Below are positions 1-58,800 of a stretch of DNA of 64,000 nt, piece after piece. The translations under genes and the position numbers were made by a program. Position 1 is the stretch's first letter; each line of letters starts with the position of its first letter. Source of the stretch: Tetrapyrgos nigripes (lineage: Eukaryota; Basidiomycota; Agaricomycetes; Agaricales; Campanellaceae); contig JAACJM010000130.1 of NCBI GenBank assembly GCA_013368315.1, positions 62,001-126,000 of the forward strand, given 5' to 3'. The notes beneath the pieces were generated by a model. The model did no database searches. It had not been told where the DNA came from and saw only the letters and a program-made list of their open reading frames with translations.

Positions 1-3000
1 GTTAGGAGAAACACCTACCAGAGGCTTCGAGCTGCTTAGCTCCGGAAATTGAAACTGTTTCACCGAGAGTTCGTCCTCTGGTCTGGTTTTGGGTCTGTCT
101 CTTCGCCTTCTGTGTTCTTGATCGACATGCATGATGCGTTTGTGCAACTCATGCGAGATGGCTGATATGAGTTCCTTTCTGCTCTGGTTAGGCTGATTGC
201 GTAGGTGTCGTGCAAAGATCTACGACAGGACTGAGCTCAGACTAGTTGAAGAGTCAAAAAATCTCACCTGAGCAAGGGAAGACTCGTGGTATCCGTCATC
301 TAACACCTCCTCGACTTCACCTGCTGAATATGCAGAGAGACATATTGCCTCTGCGTCTAACTCATTCTTTTCCTCGTGACACCATCCCGAGCAATACTCT
401 TCCACGGGGCTCTCAGCAAAGTATGCTGATTCCTCCTCAGGCTCCTCCTGCTTCTGAACCCTTTCAGCTATTGGGAGAGGCTTGTCTAACCACGGTCTAG
501 CATTAGACCCATCACTGTTTTCTTCCGAATCCATGAATTTGGGCTTGAAGCGATGTGGATACATAGCGTTTCTGCGTAGAGCTGACGGTGAAAGATGAGG
601 TCAAGAATGAGTTACAGCTTGAAGTATACATGCAAGATACGAAAAACGTACCTTTATCGAGGTCCCAGCTCTCGTCTCTCTTCCCCTGATTTTCTGAGAT
701 CCAAGGAACGTAGACCTGGTTGCAATGGGAGTGCCTCATGTTGAATAAGTTGCCTGAGCGAGAAGAATCTATGACAGACTGCAACAAAAAAGTTAGTGAA
801 GGTGTATAGGATATGTAGGTGTAAGAGAGACTTAACGACGAATTGAGCCTTGGCTGGAAGACGGTTGATAAGAAACTCCTGCAATATGTCACTGTCAATG
901 CAGTAATCCAGTTTTTGGTCTTCGTGGTCCAGGACAGCATCGGTTGGTACGATGTCTACAAGTGACTGGAAGTGCATAAAGACCCGAGAAATTATGACAG
1001 GTCAACCTACATTTGATATTTCTCATAAAAAGATTTTCTGTAGAAGAGGCACCTTCAGGGGAAGCCGGCGGTGATGGAGAGTCACGGTAGGGACTCATGC
1101 TCTCATCCAAATTGAAGATGGGTTCTCCCCGTCTAATGGAAGCGGTATTGGCATTACCTTGTATGACACGACCCGTGTAGAAGAAGAAGAAGCGGTCGCC
1201 TGTCTTTGCAGCGCCAGTGAGATTTCTTATCTCTCTCAGCTACAAGGCAAGTATAATCATATTGACTAGTCAGTCCTTGGCTCGGTCATGAGCTCATTCT
1301 GGACACACACCAGATTAGCCTTGTTAGGATAGTATTTTTCTTGGGTGTCATAATCGTCCATGAGACAGACAATGTTATCTGGATGATAATCATACAACTC
1401 TATGATCACACAAGGGGGTGAGTAATAAGGACAAGGAGTAGGACAGGAGCGTACCAATAAGGACCTTCCTCAGCGTTTGCACGTCACTGGGTTCACGAGC
1501 GGCAGAATAATCGGCGTCCAGATGGCCATATCTGATCCCAATGAGCAATGCACGCTTTGTTCCCGGGATTAAATTGGCATGTGGATAGGCACGAATGATC
1601 TTGGTGGGTGTTATGAGAGCGAAAAGGCAATCTCGCCCAACAGTCTTGATTGACCCAAAAACCTGAGCTATCATTCCAGTATCGTGGTCAATAAGAGACC
1701 ACTGGGAGTCATTGCCAGCGATATCCCCGCGTTCGTCGCCTTGGTATGGGCCAGAACAATAACCAAGGTCATGACACCGCCGTGCAATGACATCTGCCTG
1801 CCCATATGGGACAAATACCCCTCGCTTTACTTTCAGGTCACGAATGTCTAGAACGAGTGCAACGGAAGCGAGATAGGCCTTGAAGCGAAGTACCACCAGC
1901 AACCTGTTTCCCTCTGATAAGTTTCCATAGACAAAACTGGATGTATGAATCCGATCAGCATCTGTATAACCTGTCATTATAGGCAGATTTGACCAAGACC
2001 AATACCCATCTCTTCCAGAGCCTGAAAACACGTCTTCCATAATAATGTCACGGCTTTCGACCCTCACTAGAAGCCCGAAAGCCGTAGACTTCACCGGGGG
2101 AGTCTTAGCCAGCGTGACTAAAACGCCTGATCTAATGATATCGATTTCGAGGCGGAAACATGCCAGATTTTTGTGATCGGACCAGACCTTTCTGACTGCA
2201 ACCAACAGCAACCGGCCGTCACTGAGGGTCACGAGCGTTCCATCTCGGAATAAGTTGGTAGTATTTGCTGCAAGCCGGCCTTCCCAATACCAGAAACTGC
2301 CAATCTGGTGATCAGGATTGGTGCGGGAGTCGACTCTAATGCCAGTATCGACGTCAAGAAACATATTGCCCCCGTAAGACCCCAAAGTGACTGCAAACGA
2401 TTCTCGTGTTGCTTTGCTCTGAAATACCCTGGTGCAGACACGGGTGGTTGCTCCTTCATTACCGTTGTCTACACGCGGTACAGACAACCGTAACGAGATA
2501 TTTGGTGGTATGCCATCGTAAGCATGTTCTCCAACGGGCACGAAAGACTGGGCTTCTGCTGAAAGTACTGACTCCGAAGAGGATATATCAGAGTTATAGG
2601 ATGGCCACACGCGGAAGTCTCGAGCTGAGGTTTGGATCTCCTTCACATACACCTCCTCCATCTTTTCTACTGGTAGAAATAGGGTATTCGTTCGAATGAG
2701 CCAATCTGGCCGCCATCTCGTATACTCTTGGTCGCTCAACTTCAGAAGGTAGATCCCTAAAAAGTCGTCAAATCCCAGCTGGCAATCCAGATAAGCGAGA
2801 TACACTTTGAGAGAGCCGCGATGAATCCACGTTTCGAGGACGGGTTCCAGTGGGAGGTGGATACGCAGGCCGTGGTTGGTCATAGAGTATGGAAAGCTTT
2901 TGGCACTGGCAAGGGAAGATCTAACGTCACCAGAGCGTCCAAAGTCAGATGGTGAAGTGGCCAAGAGTCCCCTGTTCTCATCGCCACGAGCAGAAGACCA

Positions 3001-3744
3001 GGCAAAGATACTCTGGTCATCAGAGTATTTAATGATCTCCTCTTGTAGACGCATGAAAGCCCTTGCACCGCCCTCCCCGTATAAAGGCGGTATGTTGACC
3101 CCAAAAATCCCCATAAGAGAATAAGCACGGTCCTCCTCTCTGGTAGTCTCGCGCTCTGCGGCCCAAGACATCTTTGCCGCTATGCTAGCCTTCCCAAGAT
3201 CACCATCCCTGAGAACATCCAAAGATATACGCGTAATGCCCTGGATGACGTCCCTCAAAGTGTACTTCGTCCCCACGTCTTTCCAACTGACATCGAAGAA
3301 AACCAAGTCCGACGGCGCCAGCAGCTCCTGGAGAGTCCATCCACGGGTAAACCACCGACATCTACGGAACGACGCATCTCCACGAAGAGGATGACCATCC
3401 CTCGACAAGTCGTAATCCGATAAGTATGCATAGCATACAAAGGACTCTTGGTAGTATCGGAACATGGAGTTGATAGCTTCAGAAAGCTCGGCGCTGCTCT
3501 CCTTGTTGATACAGCAGGTATCTATCCAGACCCATTCCAGACCGTCATGACGGGTACGCTCGCATGTCCTCTCAAGCTTCTTCCATCCTCTTTTTTTCTT
3601 TGCGTCTTCTCGAAGGACAAGGCTGTAAAGATCCTGGAATGTGATTTCCTCCTCTTCCCAAGTATGTGAGAGTATAGCGTATTTCGGGATCCGCGACCCG
3701 TAAAACTCCGCAAGCTCAAGCGTATGTGTGTTAAGCAAACGCAT
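1..3744 (-). CDS. HET-domain protein fused to a catalytically dead metacaspase-like domain (3' end at or beyond window edge)
   Basis: The protein starts at 3744 (MRLLNTHTLELAEF). The HET domain shows YAILSHTW (residues 22-29), WVWIDTCCINK (71-81) and RGWTLQELLAP (134-144). A TTREEDRAYSLMGIFGVN segment (DUF8212-like) follows at about 200-217, then a divergent middle. From about residue 728 the sequence becomes caspase-like: KRALLIGIRYGHLD. After a GT-AG intron (1400-1454) comes DNIVCLMDDYD. A second intron (1240-1310) leads to TGDRFFFFYTGRV; later exons (955 to about 835, 778 to about 655, 564-220, 205-1) give IVPTDAVLD, VIDSSRSGN and finally QFPELSSSKPL. That order matches type I metacaspases. 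The usual SGHG histidine is Arg in YTGRV (about 1170), and the usual DSCHSG cysteine is Ser in DSSRSG (about 755). HET domains mediate fungal incompatibility and cell death; metacaspases are Arg/Lys-specific cysteine proteases. A regulatory, non-proteolytic role is inferred. Exon borders in the 3' half are approximate. Confidence 0.8.
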
Positions 3745-12046: not shown

Positions 12047-14449
12047 ATGCGTCTACTCAATGTATTTTCTTACGAGCTGAAAGAGTTCTTTGGTTCAAAC
12101 ATACCTGAATACGCCATTCTGTCACACACATGGGAGGAGGAAGAAATCTTGTTCGCCGATCTACGCGACTCTACAGCACGAGAAGCTGCTACTCGCAAAA
12201 AAGGCTGGCAGAAAGTCTCGGGAACGTGCAGGCGCGCTAGAGACGATGGTCTGGATTGGGTCTGGATTGATACATGCTGTATCAACAAGGAAGGCAGCGC
12301 CGAGCTTTCTGAAGCTCTCAACTCGATGTTCAGATACTATCTCGACTCCTTCGTCTGTTACGCGTACCTGTCGGATTATCGCATCATGGTCGCTGGTTAT
12401 CCCAATACAAAGACCGGAAATGCGACGTTTGAGAGTTGTCGGTGGTTTACGAGGGGATGGACTTTGCAGGAGCTTCTTGCACCAGCTGATATAGTCTTTT
12501 TTGACGCTGAATGGAAGGACATGGGGTCGCGGTTAGGTCTGAGGGATGCCATCAGTAAAGTGACAGGCATTCCTACTACCGTTCTCAAGGATGGGGATAT
12601 TGAGGACATCAGTATAGCGGCAAAGATGTCGTGGGCTGCGGACCGCCAGACTACTCGAGAGGAAGACCGTGCCTATTCTCTTATGGGCCTCTTTGGCGTC
12701 AATATGCCACCCCTTTACGGAGAAGGAGGCCCCAGTGCGTTCCTGCGTCTCCAGGAGGAAATTATCAAATTTTCCAACGACCAAAGCATCTTTGCTTGGA
12801 GTACTCCTTCCGTTACCAGCGCAGAGGATGAACGTCGAGGACTTCTCGCGAAATCTCCTTCCGAGTTCAAGGCTTGCGGCGACATTCGTGTATTGCAGGA
12901 CAGCCTCGACCTCCCTTATTCTCTGACCAATAACGGCATGCACATATACCTTCCCTTGGAACGTGCTTTTGACTTTCCAGATCCCGGCGTCGAGATATCC
13001 ATTGCCTATCTGCGTTGTGGCCGCTTTAATGAGGATGGACGTTTGGCGATTTTGCTTCGCAAGTTGAAGGATCAGCAATACGAGAGGTGGCATCCAGATT
13101 GGCTTCTCAGGCTACCTCAGCATAGATTGGCTTCTTTGACAATCGAAGAGATTTACGTAAAAGAGGTTCACCGGCCTCTACTCATGAGACCTCGTCGACA
13201 TCCCTTTGACTCCTCTATGAACTCCTTTGAATACGCTACACGGCCCGTGGACAACGTCGTCTCTGTCTTTTCACACACCACATCCATAGATCCAAAAAAC
13301 ATCCGTCCAGTTGCAGACGAGGTTCCTACTACAGGGGCTCACATACTGCAATACAAACTCGATCGTTCCGACTCTGACGAAGAGCCAATCACTGTCTCTG
13401 TCTGGTTCGCTCGAAAGTCTATATTGGATTCATTCTCCTTGACTCCATTGCATGACGAGCATGACCGAATTGTTTTACCTTTCAACGAAGACGAGTGGCT
13501 TTTGGTTACCCTTCGGAAAGAGTATGTTTTAAGAGAAGGCAACAGAGCTCGCTGTCGTTTGGAGTTTGATATCATCCTCACACGTGAAGGACAAGGACTG
13601 GGCTACGCTTCATCGGAAGAATTGCTCCAGTCTGATGTTGATCCACCGTCGTTGAGCCTGGCAACTCCTGACCAGACTCAAGTTTTGGTTTTTACTGAGC
13701 TACCGCCCCCAGAAGGACCTTATGTCGCGACTGCGTTCAAAGTCGAGAATCCAGAAGAACTATGGTCATCTATCGAGAATCCTAACGACAACGTCGACAT
13801 GGAATGGGAGTACATAGGTTCTTTTACCTCTTCCAAAGTTGCAATTTCCACTTTGACCAGCGGATGGTACGTGGTCATGTCATGTATATGACCAGTTGGT
13901 TTTACTGACCCGACCCGGCTTTCCAGCTCGTTGCTATGGCTTCAGTACTCTTTGCTCAGTGACCTCACAAGCTTCAATCTAGCACCTCTTTCTGTGCTGA
14001 GGGACCGCCAGTGGGAACACGAAACAAGTCCTGAGCTTCGTGATTCGCGACCTGGGCTGTCTGTCGTTCTAGAGATCCGCAATGGTCTTGTACGCTGGTG
14101 GAATGTACTGCCTTTCAACGAGGACCCAAGAAATCCTACTAGGGACAAAGTCGCCGTTACGTCAATGATTAGAAAATACCTCTCGCACACTGGCAACCCT
14201 CAGAGCCAGATTGAAGTCCCAGGCATCAACGAATTGGCAAATTTTTCAAATCCAGACGCAGGGATGTACATATACTTAGGTGAAGGTCGTGTGAACGCGA
14301 CTTGGGTACAACTCGAATACACTTGCACGAAGAACGCGCAGTTTATGGATCAAAATTTGCTTCGGATTATGATTGGTTTCGACCATGCCCAATTACGATA
14401 TGATGAGGGTTTTATCAATGACTTAGGGGAAGGGATAGCCATGATGTAG
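12047..14449 (+). CDS. HET-domain protein (two exons)
   Basis: Exon 1 runs 12047-13866 and exon 2 13927-14449, joined by a 60-nt GT-AG intron (13867-13926). The HET domain shows YAILSHTWEEEEILF, WVWIDTCCINKEGSAELSEA and CRWFTRGWTLQELLAPADI, then a DUF8212-like block TTREEDRAYSLMGLFGVNMP and PLYGEGGPSAFLRLQEEI. The long C-terminal region (residue 260 to the end) is shared with the other two HET proteins here, for example EDEWLLVTLRKEY, and has no recognised catalytic motif. Unlike the gene at 1-3744 it has no caspase-like tail. HET proteins act in heterokaryon incompatibility and other cell-death responses. The ATG sits in a context (GATGCGTCTACT) also seen in the paralogue at 18132, which supports the start. 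Confidence 0.85.
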
Positions 14450-18131: not shown

Positions 18132-20510
18132 ATGCGTCTACTGAATACATCCACCTACGAGTTGGAAGAGTTCGTTGGCTCCTTTATCCCCGAATACGCT
18201 ATTCTCTCGCATACATGGGAAGACGAAGAGGTATTGTTCTCGGACTTACGGGACGAGTTCACTCGGAAAGCTGCTGAATTGAAGAATGGATGGCAGAAGG
18301 TTCTGGGAACATGCAGGCAGGCTAGAATCGACGGGCTGGAATGGGTCTGGATAGATACCTGTTGCATCGACAAGGAGAGCAGTGCTGAGCTGTCCGAAGC
18401 CATCAATTCCATGTTCAGATATTACGGCGATTCTTTCGTGTGCTACGCATACTTGTCCGATTATCGCATCACGGTCGCTGGTTATCCCGATGCGAGAAAT
18501 GGCAACGCGACGTTTGAGAGGTGTCGATGGTTTACGAGGGGATGGACCTTGCAGGAGCTCCTTGCACCTGCTGACATGGTCTTCTTTGACGCAGAATGGA
18601 AGGACATGGGAACGCGCTTGGGCCTGAGGGATGCCATCAGCAAAGTGACGGGTATTTATACCATCGTTCTCGTAGATGGCGATCTCCAACGCATCAGTAT
18701 AGCGGCGAAGATGTCTTGGGCTGCCGACCGCCAGACTACTCGGGAGGAGGACCGTGCATATTCTCTTATGGGACTCTTTGGCGTAAATATGCCACTACTG
18801 TATGGCGAAGGAGAGGATAGGGCATTCATGCGTCTGCAGGAGGAGATTATTAAATACTCCAATGACTTAAGCATCTTTGCTTGGAGTGCACTTCTCAGCG
18901 ATGAAGGCACCTGGGACTCATTGCCTCAATATAGAGGACTTCTTGCAAGATGCCCTTCCGAGTTCAAAGACTCTGGCGATGTAGTCACCATGAGACCAGT
19001 CATACACAGCAAGATCCCCTACTCTTTGACCAATAAAGGCCTGCATATCCAACTTCCCTTGGAACCTGTCCCTGAAGACCTAGGCAGAGTTCCGAAAGAT
19101 GTATTCATTGCCCATCTCAACTGCGAAAAGACCGGAGCGGAACGCCTAGGAATTTATTTGCGAAAAATACCTAATTTGGAGAATACGTATGAGAGGTGGC
19201 ATCCGCATTGGTTGCTAAAGCTATACTGGAAGCCTTCGCATTGGATTATCCGTATGAAGGAGATATATGTGCAAGATTTTCGCCCATCATATCTTGGCTG
19301 CAGACGGCGCAATTTGCGATCCTCTGCCCGTCTGAGCATCGGATGGTCTCCCGCCAAAGACGAGCTCGTCTCACTCTCTTCGAAGACAGCGTGCATTGAT
19401 CTTAAATCTGTACAAGAATGGGAGGAATATTCATCCTCTCCTAGTGACAGTCGATCTCATGCAAGATATTATGAAATTTATTATCACCCCAATACCAACA
19501 GCAATCCCGTCAAAATCAATATCTCTTTCGTTTACAACTTTTACCCTGGCCATGTCTTTCTCAGGGTAGACAATCAAACCAAAGGCCTTCACAGACGGGG
19601 TCTTGGAGGTGCTCCTCCTAACGACCAAGTGATCATGCCCATAAATGAAAGCGAATCTTTGTTGATTACCGCTCGAAGAGAACGGCACCCAAAAGACATG
19701 GACACTATTCTCCAAGCTCGTCACCGCTTGGCTTTCGATACTATATCAAACTCCCTGCCGCAGCCAGATGCTTCAAATCTTCCCTCCGCGGAAGTGCCAG
19801 TACAGCATTCTGTCCCAACCAAAATGTCTTCCCTTGAACGACAGAATAGGACTACCTTGGCACTATCATTACAGTCAGAATTTTGGGGTATAGGATGTAT
19901 CTCCTTGTATTTCCAAGATGAGGCAGGCACGTTCAACCGAAAATGGGGGGAAGAAACCGAGCTTGGCCTAGTAGGTGACGAGCAATTCCATCGTGAAACC
20001 AGAATACAAGATGGCAGCAAACCGTAAGTTGCCAACTCATTAATGGTGGTATTTACTGGTTTTCTTATAGAGTTATTTCACAACCACAGGTCACTGATGA
20101 TCCTTCGTATTTTCCCAGACAAATTGGGAGACGACTACCCTGACTACTTGTTCGAACGGAGAATGACCAAACAACTTCTATTGATATTCGAAATCCGTGA
20201 TTTTCGAGTGTGCTGGTATAAAGCTGTTCCGGTTGAGAACATCGACCATAGCCGATTCCAGGAATTCGATCACCAGGCCGCCATGTACAAGGCGATGGCT
20301 ATGGAACTTTTGCAAAACCGCTCACCAAATGAAGTTACATTCATAGCAGAGTCTGACGATTCGTATGTCGAAATGGAGGCTATCGATGCTCTGCGGGTAC
20401 GGATTTCTGTGAACAAACCCATAAAAATGATTGCGCACGATGTGCTTTGGGTTCAAATCGGTCTTGGGCTGGCAGTGGGTTTGCCACCTGCTAATGACCT
20501 TCTCCATTGA
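18132..20510 (+). CDS. HET-domain protein (two exons)
   Basis: Exon 1 runs 18132-20023 and exon 2 20090-20510 with a 66-nt intron (20024-20089). HET motifs are YAILSHTWEDEEVLFSDL, WVWIDTCCIDKESSAELSEA and RWFTRGWTLQELLAPADMV; the DUF8212-like block reads TTREEDRAYSLMGLFGVNMP. It is more similar to the gene at 12047 than to the one at 1-3744 through the first 250 residues (both read ITVAGYP/IMVAGYP and KDMGxRLGLRDAISKVTG). The C-terminal half is strongly diverged, ending WVQIGLGLAVGLPPANDLLH. A conserved recognition core with a variable C-terminus fits a non-self-recognition role, which is inference. Confidence 0.85.
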
Positions 20511-23565: not shown

Positions 23566-25155
23566 TTATCTGCAATGCATAGTCAGTGTCAGTTCATTTA
23601 TGTGCAGTGTCCAGCAATACTTACCTTCTCCAAATAGTACCTTTACTTGCTGACTTGAAGTGCACCTTAATAGGGCCACATACAACTGGCCATGAGTAAA
23701 AACTGATATCCATAAGTCTAACCCCACATGATCCACAGATTGCCCTTGAGATTTGTTGATAGACATTGCAAAGGCAAGGCAAACTGGAAACTGACGACGC
23801 CTCAGTGTAAATGGGAGATCCAGGTTCCCAGGTTCAATATTCAGGCAAGGTATGAAAATCTTTTTGCCAGTGTGATCCCCACCAATGATCCTTGCCTCTA
23901 AGACATGCATGTTTGCTGCAGTGAGCACAGCTCTGGTGCCATTGCAAACTCCATTTGATGGATCCAAATTCCGCAAGATCATAATTGGAGCACCAACTTT
24001 CAGTTGGAGATTTGACAGTGGAAGACCTGAACCTTTGATTGAGTTCAGATATTCTATTGGATAATTGAAATCACCCTCTGAAAATGCAGAATCAGCACTG
24101 GGATATGTTAATTCATCTCCTCGAAGCATATTGAGGCATTGTTGGTTTAGCTCATCTACACTATCATTTCTAGCTGAAAGTATGGTCTGCTTGAGAAACC
24201 AATCATCAGATTCCATAGAAGCTGGATTGATGGTTTGTAGGCCTGTATAGATTGCTGCCACTAATGACTCAGGTGTATCTCCACATTTCATCCCTGGATC
24301 CAGTTGAACTTCAAAGTTAGAATCAAGACAATGATTGCAGCCATGCCCAATATCAAGAAGCCATTTTGCATATTGTCTGTCCTCTTCAGAGCTACTGTCC
24401 AACCTCTTATTGTGTTTCAGGTGGAGAATTTGGATATCCTTCCAAATATATGACCTTTGGATACACTGGCCAATAATCTGTTCAGCTGTGTCTTTCTTGA
24501 CTACTGGAAGAATTTGCTGAAAATCACCACCAAAAACAACAGTGATGCCTCCAAATAGCTTTTCTGGCTCTGACCGTATATCCCGCAAAGTGAGGTCTAC
24601 AGCTTCCTGACAAAAGCAATCCTGCATGGGCACCTCATCCCAGATAATCAGATCAACTTCGCGAAAAAGCTTTCCCAAAAGGCTCTGCTTTTTCACTGAA
24701 CATAATTTCCCCTCATAGATTTTGATTGGTATCTTAAATGTTGAGTGTGCTGTGCAACCACCAATCAAAAGTAATGCTGCAATGCCTGATGAGGCAACAC
24801 AAAGGACAATCTTCCTCTCTGCATGAAGGGCATAACACAGAGTATTGTAACGGAATGTCTTTCCAGTCCCAGCTGGGCCATGCAGAAAGAATAATTTGGG
24901 ATCATTATCGATCACTGACTTCTGGATCTCCTCAAAAGCAGCAGATTGCTCTGCATTCAACTTGCTGATATTTTCTTGAGCCTTTTGTCTCTCTTCCTCA
25001 GGATCATATGCTAACTGCTCTGCAATTAACCGGTTTCCTTCAAGCTGTTCCCACTGCTCATAGTTTGGTTGAGGCATGGAAGAAAATTTTGAGTCTCTCA
25101 GTCCTCATTTATGCCTCCATGAAATAAAACCTTATCAATAAGATAAAGACCATAG
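23566..25155 (-). pseudogene. Helitron helicase (Pif1-like) fragment
   Basis: The 503-residue frame starts MPQPNYEQWEQLEGNRLIAE and has Walker A GPAGTGKTFRYNTL, Walker B-like LIIWDEVPMQD, GGDFQQILPV (motif III-like) and a C-terminal SINKSQGQSVDHVGLDLW. This is the superfamily 1 Pif1-type helicase of Helitrons, which unwinds donor DNA during rolling-circle transposition. The upstream part YGLYLIDKVLFHGGINED is in another frame, so at least one frameshift separates it from the helicase core. The ATPase motifs themselves look intact. Confidence 0.85.
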
Positions 25156-25989
25156 TGTAGCAGGGACTCGTGTCCTTCTCGTAGACTATCCTTTTCTTTC
25201 TTCTTTTCCTCTTGATCTCTTTATTCTATAATTCTCACTCCTGATTTGCTCCAACCCCGAACTTTGTACTTCTACCAACCCCTATACGTATCCCTTCAAC
25301 TTCTCTCGATCGACTTCTTTCCCAACATCCTATCTACACCCGAAGCGTCCGTCCTGTCCCTCGCACCGCACCTTGAGCAAGTGTGTAGGGTCTGGGGCCC
25401 CCTTCCTGCGTTGTATATACGTCTGACAGTTTACCGATGCCGACAGTGGACGTAGTGATGTTGGTAGAGTAGATCATCTTGTCATCATTGACATGGGCAC
25501 TTTAGTTACTCATGGTCCGGACTTCAAAGATTCCGACTCTTCTTCTCTTCTTCTTCTTCACACATCGATTAATGCTTACTCGCTTCCCAACTCATACCTT
25601 ACGATTTCCTACATCGTCGACTTCTACTCTCTAAAACTCTATCATTCTCTTCTTCTTCTCCTTTTAGTTATATTTGTAGTACACCAGGCACCGGGATGCA
25701 TAGTATATAGCTACGATGTGTAGATAGTAATCTATCTCTCTCTCTGCCTATATTCCGAGCCCCACACCTTAACTCTGAGCCCAAACTTGATCCCGAGCCT
25801 TTCTACTTGTTACTTGAGCCTAAATCTCTTCTGAACTTCACTTGAGCCCACTTTTCCCTTTCCATTCACGTGACACTCAGCCAACATGCTTCGTCTGTCA
25901 CATGCTCGTTCCTCTCTTCTCTTACTCTCCATCACCAACACTCGACTGTTTACTCCCGTGTCCTCCGTTGGACGCACAACTCCCCTATA
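25156..25989. mobile_element. Solo-LTR-like insertion inside the Helitron
   Basis: The Helitron coding sequence is interrupted between NPNEKDIYNY and YGLYLIDKVL. The insert starts TGTAGCAGGG and ends CCCCTATA, resembling a TGTAG...CTACA LTR with one changed base. It is flanked by ATAG on both sides (25152-25155 and 25990-25993). It carries no meaningful ORF. A solo LTR is the best reading; a MITE of another class is possible. Confidence 0.5.
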
Positions 25990-27517
25990 ATAGTTATAAA
26001 TATCTTTTTCATTAGGATTGGCCACTATGCTCCTGCTAATGAGTAGGTGTCAGATGTCATCACAAATGTATACCTTGAACTCTTCCCAAAGCACTTCAGG
26101 CTGCAATGGAGCACAATCTTTAAGGATAGTTGCAAACAGTGATCTTAACTGTGAACCTGTTTGAACCACGTTTGCTTGCTCTAGGCATTGCCGCCATTCA
26201 CCATCATCTTCTAAAAGCCCTTGTGCCAAGCAAGCCTCTCAGAAGGTTGACCATACTTTTCTTTTGTTGTAGCCTGGCCTGTCTGGATCAGGCTCATTGG
26301 TGTCAGTTGTATGCAAATCTTCAAAAGACACAGCCCCAGTGACCACTGTTAGCAATAGTCACAAGTAGAAGTGTTCACCTGCAGAGGGATGGACAAAATA
26401 CATTGGCCCTATTGCAAAACCTTTCTGTCTAGCTTTCTACTTCTTTGTTGTCTTCACCCATACAAACTTTTGTGAAAAGTTCTGATAGAGGGTGCTTCAT
26501 GCAATAGTTGTTGCCTGGTCTGGATGCTCCTCTGCAGTCTTCTTCTCATCTGCATTTGCTTCAAACCATCCCATAAGTGTTGTCTTCTGCTTCTGAGCCT
26601 GGTTGAGAATATCATGAGCTCCTTGCTCTTCATGAAAAACAACCATCTGCTCTCTCTCTGTGTGAAGAGACAACTGAACCACATTAGGTATTCTTCCATG
26701 CATCTCATAATGCATCAATCTCCAGATGGCTTCTGCACAGGAAATGTAGCGGGCTTCTGCATATTGCTTGATCTCATCTATTGCCTCTCCAAATGACATA
26801 GTGTTCTTGTCATGTCCTTTATAGATATACTTGTGAATGTACTTGAATGCCTTGACAGACATGCAACACTCCAGATTTCCATGGCATTTAAGCTGGATTA
26901 ATATCCAGGCATTGTAAGGCACCACCCATTGATTGTCTACTTTAACATCCTGACCATTGACCTTTTTCATGATGTAGCGGCCATTGTCAGGTTGTGCATA
27001 AGTAGTGTACCCATCTTCAGAGAGTGCTGTTTCACTAACAAAAGGTTTAGGAAATCCCTTGATACATTTGCCATGCTTCATATAGGGTGCATCCAGATTG
27101 TGGACACCACAGGGCCCATGTATCATACAGCTTGTCACTAACTCAAATAGAGTGGGATTTGTGTCTTTATCTGGCAGCTGAGCAGAGATAACTTTGTCAA
27201 TCATATTGTCAATCATATGAGGGTCACGGATTCTTGCTTCAGGTGACAGAAATATTAGAATATGTCCATGTGGCAGTCCTCTCTTCTGGAATTCAATGGT
27301 ATATACATAACCAACACATTTGCCCAGAATCCCTTTCTCTCGTATATCTTTCAGAACCATTCTCAATTTCTCCAAATCTGGCCTGGTTCCAATGCACTTT
27401 TGATTTCCCCACAATTTGGATTTGCTGTGATTGTAAGGAAAAAGTCTGGTTTTGAAAAATGCCATGCCAAAGCAAATGAATCCTGATAAAGTTGGAACAT
27501 ATGCCAGGAACTCCCTA
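25990..27517 (-). pseudogene. Helitron Rep (HUH nuclease) fragment
   Basis: The main open segment (27465-26497) carries YTIEFQKRGLPHGHILIFL with the HUH motif (HGH). Further on are YNAWILIQLKCHGNLECCMS and KYIHKYIYKGHD, which includes the two-tyrosine region of Helitron Rep. After a frame change, LRSLFATILKDCAPLQPEVL and LWEEFKVYICDDI continue the family pattern. The N-terminal piece HMFQLYQDSFALAWHFSKPD lies in a different frame. Rep nicks and joins single-stranded DNA in rolling-circle transposition. This copy is broken by frameshifts and inserts. Confidence 0.8.
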
Positions 27518-55882: not shown

Positions 55883-58800
55883 TCAGAATTTCAGCAGCAT
55901 TCGATAGGTTTCTCCCAGACCTCGCAGACACCAAGCTACTCCTAGCTGATCTCCAATCTGTTCAAACTGTTCTTTGGCTCTGTTCAGCATCTCAGCAGAC
56001 TCATTGTAGTTGCCCTGCATTCGGCGAATATCTCCCAGACTTTGCAGACACTGAGCAGCTCCCAGCCAATCAACAATCTGTTCAAATTGATTTTTGGCTT
56101 TGATCAGCATCTCAACAGCCTCACTGGATTTATTCTGCATGGAGTGGATCTCTCCTAGTCTTTGCAGACACTGTGCAACTCCTAGCTGATGTCTAGTCTT
56201 TTCAAACTCATCTTGAGCTCTGTTAAGCATCTCAACAGCCTCTATGTATTTGTTTTGCATCCGGAGAATATCTCCCAGACCTTGCAGACACTGGGCTGCT
56301 CCTTCTTGAATTCCAATTTCTTCAAATTGAGCTTTGGCTCAGTTCAGTATCTCCGTAGCCTCACTATATTTGCTCTGCATGCGGTGGATCTGTCCCAGGC
56401 TTTGCAGACACTGGGCCACTCCCAGCCGACCTCCAACCCATTCAAAATGATCTTTGGCTCTGTTTACCATCTGCATAGCCTTTGTATATTTGCCCTGCAT
56501 GTAGTGGATGTCTCCAAGCCTTTGCAGACACTGGGACACTCCTAGCTGATATCCAGTCTATTCAAACTGATCTTTGGCTCTATTCAGTATCTCAGTAGCC
56601 TCACTGTAGTTGTTCTGCATGCGGTGGATGTCTCCTAGGTTTTGCATACACTGGGCAACCCCCTGCTGATTCCCAATCTGCTCAAAATAACTTTTAGCCA
56701 CAGCATACTTGTCAAAGGCTTCATGATATTTGGCTTGCACATAGTAAATATTTCCAAGCTCTCTAAGAACTTTTGCACTATATCTAATATTATGCCAATT
56801 GTTTCTCGTCATCCTGTCTGCCTCAGCCTTAGCCTTATGCCATCTTGCCATCCATATAAGCATATACAGCCTCTGAAGCTGTAACTGAAGTTTATCTTTT
56901 TCAGCAAGTTCAGAAGAATTGCTGAGAATGTTATTAAGGATATCAACTGTTGTTGGATAAAACTTGCTGAAATGATCAAGAATCTGTATAGCTTCAATAT
57001 GTAGCTTCTTGGGACAATACTTGATCTGTTCATTCAATATCTTCGTAATATTTGAGATATGAGGCTGAAGTTGATTCTGTCTCTCTTGTGGCTCACCAGA
57101 AATGCCATGGAGCAAAGAAGTATAGAAGGTTTCAATCAATGGAAGTTCACTTGTTATATCTGTGGTGGGATCCATGCAGATATATTCACGTATAGGTGCC
57201 AAAACCTTGATAGTTAGGCTTTGACTGTAGACCAGAGAATATTCAAGCAATGTATTGATAGACTGGTCCAACTGTTCAAACCCTGCTAACATTCCAGAAA
57301 GATTTGATACCCAATCAGGTATTCCATCTGGCAGAAAAGAGATAATTGCCAGAAGTTTAGCTTGAAGTGGGTTCAGCAGTCTTGTGGATAACTTGATTGA
57401 ATGATCAACACTTGTTAATCTCCCATCAGCTTTTCCTTGAGTCAGCATAGCTGTTTTGTTTTCCTGCCACATTCTTAGCAGTGATTCAAGTGGAACTGAT
57501 TTAGCCCTCTTAGCAATGAGAGTGATGGCAAGTGGAACACAATCAAGCTCTTTCAAGATCTGTTCAATAATATGATTCTCCTGTTCTAATTCTTTCTTTC
57601 CAGCAATTGTCAAGAAGACGTTTCTTGCAGATTCAAGTGCAAGAGGAAGAATTGAATCTGATCCAAGTGTTTTCCATTCAATGGAACCTGGTCCATTTAA
57701 TCCTCTCATCGTAAGAATCATGGAAATTTGATTGACTCCAGCCAGATTTTCAAGCAGGCTCTCAACATGAACTTGGTCATTGTTCCAAGGAGTTTCAAAA
57801 TTGTCCAGGATGAAAAGCACAGGCTCCATGTGGATCTTAAAATGCTCCTCCAATTTTTTGTGTTGGCTTTCTCTCTCTTTGACTTGAATCTCCAGTCTCT
57901 GAGTTAATCCTTGGAGAAGTGACCTTGCATCTGGCAGCACTTCACAAGGTAGGAAATATGAAGCCTGTCCATATTTTTCCTGGACTTCCTCAGCATTATT
58001 GATATGTAAAGCAATGGATGTCTTTCCAATGCCTCCTGCTCCAAGAATAGCAAGAAAAGCCTGATCACTGCCAATCATGCAGTTGGCTCCTTCAGCTACC
58101 AATTCATCTCGACCAAAGAAGATTTTTGATACAGCAGGGGTGGCTCTCTCAAGGTCACTTGAATAATACATTTAACCCTAAAATTACAAAGTGATTTTTG
58201 AAAAAGACTTACTCATAGGTAATAGTGGACTGGTCATGAATTTTGGCAATATTAGCCAATGATTTCTGCATCACCTCTTGTTCTTTCTTGAGATCTTGTT
58301 GTCCTTGTTTGAGCTCTTCAGCAGCATTCCAATTATTTGCACTGGCTTTCGTCTATTCATAAAGAGAAAACTATGGGAAATATGCTTTCATCCAATAAGA
58401 ATACTTACTGTAAACCTGATCATGCAACAATTGATAGCATCCTTGCATTCCTTGATAGTATTTCCATCTTTTGTTGCATGCAAAAAACTCTTGCCCCTGC
58501 TGCGCTGGCCAATCTTTTGCAGTTTTTTGGCCACATTTTCGAACTCACTGTGATTGCACTTCAGCAGCTATTACTTTATTCTAGAAAGCATCCTCATACC
58601 TTTTAATCTCTTCCACACTCTCCATCAATAATTCATCTTTGTTGTGAGTACCTTGTTTAATGATTTTAGTCATATCATTGAGAAACTTGGCACTGTTGTG
58701 TGGAATGCTGATACAATCTTTCTTATTCTGTCCCATGGTCTAACCAAGATTAAAGGTTCTGGTGGTACATGATAAAGACTATTAAGTAGGCAACTTACCT

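Follow-up and report, generated by a model that had tools for sequence, protein, structure and literature searches.

In a 64,000-nucleotide stretch of the genome of the fungus Tetrapyrgos nigripes (Campanellaceae, Agaricales), hereafter the window (G000:C127:62001-126000, in an assembly of 98.5 Mb and 587 contigs), the first gene encodes a protein whose N-terminal HET domain is joined to a C-terminal relative of the metacaspases in which both residues of the catalytic dyad are replaced. We put the chances at about even that this module is an integrated decoy: bait for whatever acts on intact metacaspases, switching on the HET domain.

The fusion protein and its replaced catalytic dyad

The gene lies on the minus strand and has eight exons, the last of them beyond the window edge (Table 1). 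Exon 1 is one stop-free frame running from the HET domain through the first metacaspase strand, RALLIG, and all seven introns (48-71 bases) are of the GT..AG type. For intron 3 the first splice choice led to stops, and an acceptor 10 bases downstream was adopted. The gene reading comes from one assembly. Its product, of 1131 residues, is identical over the full length to D9758_012897 of T. nigripes; this public gene model is also a HET-metacaspase fusion, and its precomputed domain list names just PF06985 and PF26640 and omits the metacaspase part. The initial annotation of this DNA had proposed a HET domain fused to a metacaspase-like one, and a single frame indeed holds both, with no stop between them.

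The profile comparison suggested there for the spliced protein gave a divided answer. The HET domain was recovered (PF06985, 48 bits against a cut-off of 22.5, profile positions 1-90 of 146), but the expected Peptidase_C14 match was missing in Pfam, up to E 1 for the whole protein and up to E 10 for the 236-residue p20 part. A six-frame search of the genome likewise omitted the module from its matches. The Peptidase_C14 profile matches six of the seven relatives scanned, the exception being P0010. Because Pfam is negative, homology of the module rests on a phmmer match in the PDB (Metacaspase-1, 7qp0; E 6e-8), on introns, on the tree described below and on the fold. All seven introns in the module are common to P0003, an intact metacaspase of T. 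nigripes, to which the module is 43% identical over 306 columns, and blocks such as VYVPWIS and EYCSG are retained. As for the fold, the annotation had staked its reading on a caspase-fold match, and the predicted model places the module in the caspase-hemoglobinase fold. Neither NACHT nor NB-ARC was found in the fusion (Pfam gives HET alone, and the precomputed list adds PF26640 only), which sets the protein apart from the NOD-like receptor (NLR) and STAND classes.

The catalytic site was read from an alignment of 128 rows, comprising the module, P0002, nine proteins and 117 further proteins. Arg817 of the fusion stands at the His position and Ser915 at the Cys position, so that the annotated replacement of both catalytic residues holds in the alignment and in a motif scan alike. 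The His column reads H in 123 rows, Y in 3, R in 1 and C in 1, and the Cys column C in 121, S in 4, D in 1, T in 1 and a gap in 1; the scan agrees, detecting the His motif in 124 of the 128 rows and the Cys motif in 118. Both residues are absent from three rows only, the module and two proteins from Favolaschia claudopus, P0005 and P0010. His alone is absent from P0008 and P0028, and Cys alone from P0120; the deviations in P0011, P0035 and P0077 look like faults of gene model or alignment. In the module DSSRSG replaces DSCHS, and the His of the second motif is also gone.

The loop by the dead site has 52 residues in the module versus 18 in P0003, and within it residues 826-865 have a predicted local distance difference test score (pLDDT) below 50. 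In active metacaspases an acidic stretch after the His binds calcium. This stretch reads EEDRREE in P0003 (acidic pattern EEDxxEE) and has no counterpart in the loop of the module, which holds six scattered acidic residues. A review describes calcium binding by conserved acidic residues that lie in p20 or close to it, and loss of activity in yeast Yca1 when His or Cys is replaced (PMC12914765). The dyad replacement, the predicted fold and the signs of constraint reported below all point to a probable pseudoprotease with a kept scaffold, as the annotation had envisaged.

Several relatives call for separate comment. P0005, P0008 and P0010, all from F. claudopus and named "Metacaspase type II", make up an Agaricales pseudo-metacaspase group that is apparently independent of the fusion. 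P0016, P0019, P0023, P0025, P0030 and P0071 are named "mitochondrial chaperone BCS1" or "SCF ubiquitin ligase complex subunit cdc4"; a caspase domain is all that is listed for them, and they are likely misnamed or fused gene models. In P0033 of Tricholomella constricta, inspection by eye finds a second metacaspase-like stretch after the first in one predicted protein.

Descent and constraint of the module

The module descends from an intron-bearing metacaspase gene. A 57-row tree, from which 15 named rows were dropped (long ones among them) and which was thinned at 75% identity, places it with P0003 and with P0004 of Stygiomarasmius scandens (support 95/85). By its shared introns and its grouping beside P0003, from which a 123-row tree differs, it may be classed as a host-protein copy joined to a death or immune receptor. 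Since P0005 and P0010 sit among Mycena rows, away from the module, their dyad loss looks independent. The start Met of P0003 falls opposite a Thr of the fusion in the 128-row alignment, and the fusion stretch TKIIRAYP resembles metacaspase starts, for example MKIGRYHP of P0002; a joint at the old metacaspase start codon would fit, although a smaller alignment places those residues otherwise.

Alignment columns that are equal in P0003 and P0004 were grouped by their conservation in the family. Where conservation is at least 95% the module has kept 43 of 56 columns, and where it is below 50% it has kept 18 of 53 (Fisher p 8e-6); the intermediate classes gave 23/43, 10/27 and 22/43. The dyad His and Cys are among the 13 of 56 highly conserved columns that have changed. 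Neutral decay was simulated in 2000 runs from about 405 codons of P0003, with substitutions only and no indels, a setting generous to decay. None of the 2000 runs was still open at a mean identity of 65% to the start, five were at 72%, and about 8% were at 89%. Because the neutral runs lose their open frame well above the observed 43% identity between the module and P0003, a divergence owed in part to P0003's own short branch, most of the module's divergence is likely to have arisen under a need to stay translatable. At the same time the module has the longest end branch in both trees, 1.81 with 123 rows and 2.2 with 57 rows, P0003 and P0004 having 0.22 and 0.36 in the latter. Constraint combined with fast evolution would fit a recognition surface.

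Searches for a second example returned none within their reach. Fusion residues 380-1131, scored against the 7993 candidate proteins sharing most words, matched the protein itself and one metacaspase, with no second fusion. P0002 residues 30-215 (candidate lengths 413-1314) gave 216 matches, with no PF06985 among the 120 matches listed. In its own genome the module matched only contigs C127, C194 and C30; intact metacaspase paralogues are present in this genome. Loci of other metacaspases, 30 in all and overlapping in part (28 spanning 3.1-3.9 kb, the others 8 and 6 kb), showed no HET domain beside the enzyme; the test is weak, for with the same HET queries the eight control HET loci gave E values no better than 7e-5 to 0.9. 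Among the metacaspase loci, the cysteine motif went unread in L010, L011, L013, L023, L027 and L031, and L019 gave one stray match on the minus strand, without Cys. Our searches of open-licence literature met no HET-metacaspase fusion, which does not prove its absence.

The gene and its neighbourhood

Table 1. Features of the fusion gene and its HET paralogues (window coordinates unless stated).
Feature	Position	Strand	Basis or remark
Exon 1: HET, paralogue-shared region, middle region, RALLIG strand	1455..3744	-	frame, Pfam, alignment
HET Pfam stretch	residues 22-112 = window 3681-3409	-	Pfam
Region common with HET paralogues	to residue ~453 of fusion, exon 1	-	alignment
Middle region, origin unassigned	residues ~454-728, exon 1	-	
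Exon 2: metacaspase p20, CLMDD block	1311..1399	-	
Exon 3: p20, GDRFFFFYTGR, most of 52-residue loop	1011..1239	-	
Arg817 codon, catalytic His position	1168..1170	-	
Exon 4: p20, YIVPTD to LINRLPAKAQFV	837..955	-	
Exon 5: p20, DSSRSG motif and NQVYVPWIS block	652..778	-	
Ser915 codon, catalytic Cys position	761..763	-	
Exon 6: shortened linker, p10-like start (SPVEEYCSGWC)	268..581	-	
Exon 7: p10-like part (ISHELHK ... PELSSSKPL)	19..219	-	
Last intron, its start	1..18	-	
Last coding exon (DMNQRWDM, stop)	outside window, G000:C127:61925-61951	-	
Unfused HET paralogue a	12047..13891	+	614 residues; 53% identical to fusion residues 1-453; PF06985 match
Unfused HET paralogue b	18132..20027	+	631 residues; 60% identical to fusion residues 1-373; PF06985 match

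Judged by alignment, the N-terminal half of the fusion is a member of a local HET cluster. The two paralogues in the window score 44 and 48.7 bits with PF06985, and their C-termini differ from that of the fusion. A genome search (E up to 1) with the C-terminal half of paralogue a gave 102 matches, counting its own locus; most cover the first ~100 residues of that half. Fusion residues 365-729 matched only their own locus, in an insensitive search that also missed paralogue a, alignable to residue 453. In the predicted model the middle region and the HET half are mostly below pLDDT 50 (alignment of 27 rows, two of them HET relatives).

The same window carries, besides the three HET genes, an NLR-like frame with NB-ARC/STAND and TPR (56558-58171, minus strand). 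PIF1 helicase and Helitron_like_N frames (23566-27465, minus strand) mark a Helitron-type element not far from the HET cluster, and several retroelement polyprotein frames, Ty3/gypsy-like by eye from their translations, occupy 30113-53880. Elsewhere in the genome, a HET-gene segment occurs in six near-identical copies, on contigs C91, C179, C398, C434, C477 and C502 (L002-L007, L047-L052). Four are 99.4-99.8% identical to the C91 copy over ~9.9 kb, and that on C477 99.7% over 4.4 kb. Contigs C91, C398, C434 and C502 stop at the same base, and TTAGGG/CCCTAA was not found in the final 400 bases of five of the segment stretches (L051 excepted). The segment may be a HET-bearing repeat that has spread recently, or else a repeat at which the assembly breaks.

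Possible role of the module

In other proteins, published accounts describe HET as enough by itself to cause death and as TIR-related (PMC12881547, PMC10197012), and by analogy the HET end of the fusion would trigger cell death, acting as the executor. The pseudo-metacaspase end would be the sensor, in the manner of the C-terminal recognition domain of BH (het-B) of Podospora anserina: an agent that acts on the fungus's intact metacaspases, whether an attacker or an active metacaspase, would bind or cut the module and so turn on the HET domain. The long loop beside the dead site, modelled with low confidence, might offer an exposed place for such handling. The annotation had left the choice between sensor, adaptor and decoy; we favour the sensor or decoy by analogy, since it is the C-terminal domain of BH that determines recognition (PMC10890737). 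A bolder version is possible though doubtful: a HET executioner would have taken over a metacaspase whose active site was then lost, keeping it as bait and thereby guarding the metacaspase pathway, so that tampering or activation leads to HET-driven suicide.

BH offers the closest architecture. In it a HET domain is followed by a HET-associated beta-rich domain and, at the C-terminus, a lectin fold; in a chimera the C-terminal domain fixed recognition, the authors viewing HET as the likely executor (PMC10890737). Like the fusion, it combines an N-terminal HET domain, further regions and a distinct C-terminal module, with no NLR and with other HET genes nearby. The fusion differs in carrying a pseudo-metacaspase in place of the lectin fold and in having no known partner, and any correspondence between the beta-rich domain and fusion residues ~240-453 is putative. 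C-terminal enzyme copies on fungal NLRs, for example a CHK-2-like kinase, have been proposed as integrated decoys (PMC12258605). There too a relative of a housekeeping enzyme sits at the C-terminus of a death or immune protein in few genomes, but the fusion lacks NACHT and NB-ARC and its enzyme is a metacaspase with the dyad replaced. Fungal gasdermins have CHAT or S8 protease sensors, some of them NLRs (PMC10197012, PMC12881547), and a CHAT idiomorph is tied to incompatibility in Aspergillus fumigatus (PMC11138114). CHAT sensors share with the fusion a caspase-related domain physically built into a fungal death receptor; in those systems, however, proteases are described as controlling gasdermins, whereas here a dyad-less metacaspase relative sits on a HET protein. 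P0005 and P0010 are likewise Agaricales metacaspase relatives with both dyad residues gone, but Pfam finds no HET domain in them, and their loss is apparently independent. We know of no report of a HET domain in MCA4 of Trypanosoma brucei. This protein, too, is related to metacaspases and lacks the His-Cys dyad, having Tyr-Ser where the fusion has Arg-Ser (PMC6426788).

Several points weigh against a decoy. Its role, like ligand recognition itself, is putative and drawn from sequence, predicted fold and analogy. The fusion is a single example, so that its conservation cannot be shown. Fast evolution also fits slow decay, as do the changes in 13 of the 56 most conserved columns, and some of the constraint may predate the fusion. 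The 123-row tree (five of the 128 rows left out) joins the module with P0006 and P0007 of Moniliophthora, at 91% in the Shimodaira-Hasegawa-like approximate likelihood ratio test (SH-aLRT), a meeting of long branches according to the program's flag. Incompatibility death in Neurospora crassa is independent of metacaspases (Hutchison 2009, cited in PMC2988816).

Finally, a part as clamp or adaptor is not much less likely. Tentatively, the pseudo-metacaspase could be a regulatory clamp or adaptor that holds HET inactive or recruits an active metacaspase and is freed through cleavage by a true one. The T. brucei pseudo-metacaspase MCA4 is processed by the true metacaspase MCA3 (PMC6426788), and the retained blocks and the intact paralogues in the genome agree with such a part; strong acceleration, however, is less expected of an internal clamp, and the metacaspase interaction is putative. 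It is rather improbable that the module is a functionless, decaying passenger, acquired when a HET gene captured a metacaspase gene through loss of the interval between them. Occurrence in one genome, the longest end branch in both trees, the repeat-rich neighbourhood and the altered conserved columns speak for this, but the frame is open across eight exons with every intron GT..AG, conserved columns were preferentially kept, and none of the neutral runs stayed open at 65% identity. Two separate genes, the HET gene ending early and the metacaspase part having its own transcript from an internal Met, would suit the in-frame Met 38 residues before residue 729; this is very unlikely, given the stop-free HET frame up to the module and the fused public model. 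Equally hard to credit is a sequence error in the single assembly or an enzyme still active with Ser915 as nucleophile, when the dyad changes accompany loss of the second-motif His and of the acidic loop and 11 other changes where family conservation is at least 95%, and the dyad has no His to activate a nucleophile.

If the module does serve as an integrated decoy, it would be the first to sit in a HET protein that lacks an NLR core and would provide the first direct molecular bridge from metacaspase biology to HET-based immunity. HET ranks with the most common domains in fungal genomes, yet for few of these domains is it known what they sense. For one HET receptor, the fusion points to a candidate ligand pathway that is open to test. 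It also illustrates how a degenerate caspase fold within a fungal death protein can escape a standard domain library, and more modules of this kind may be hidden.
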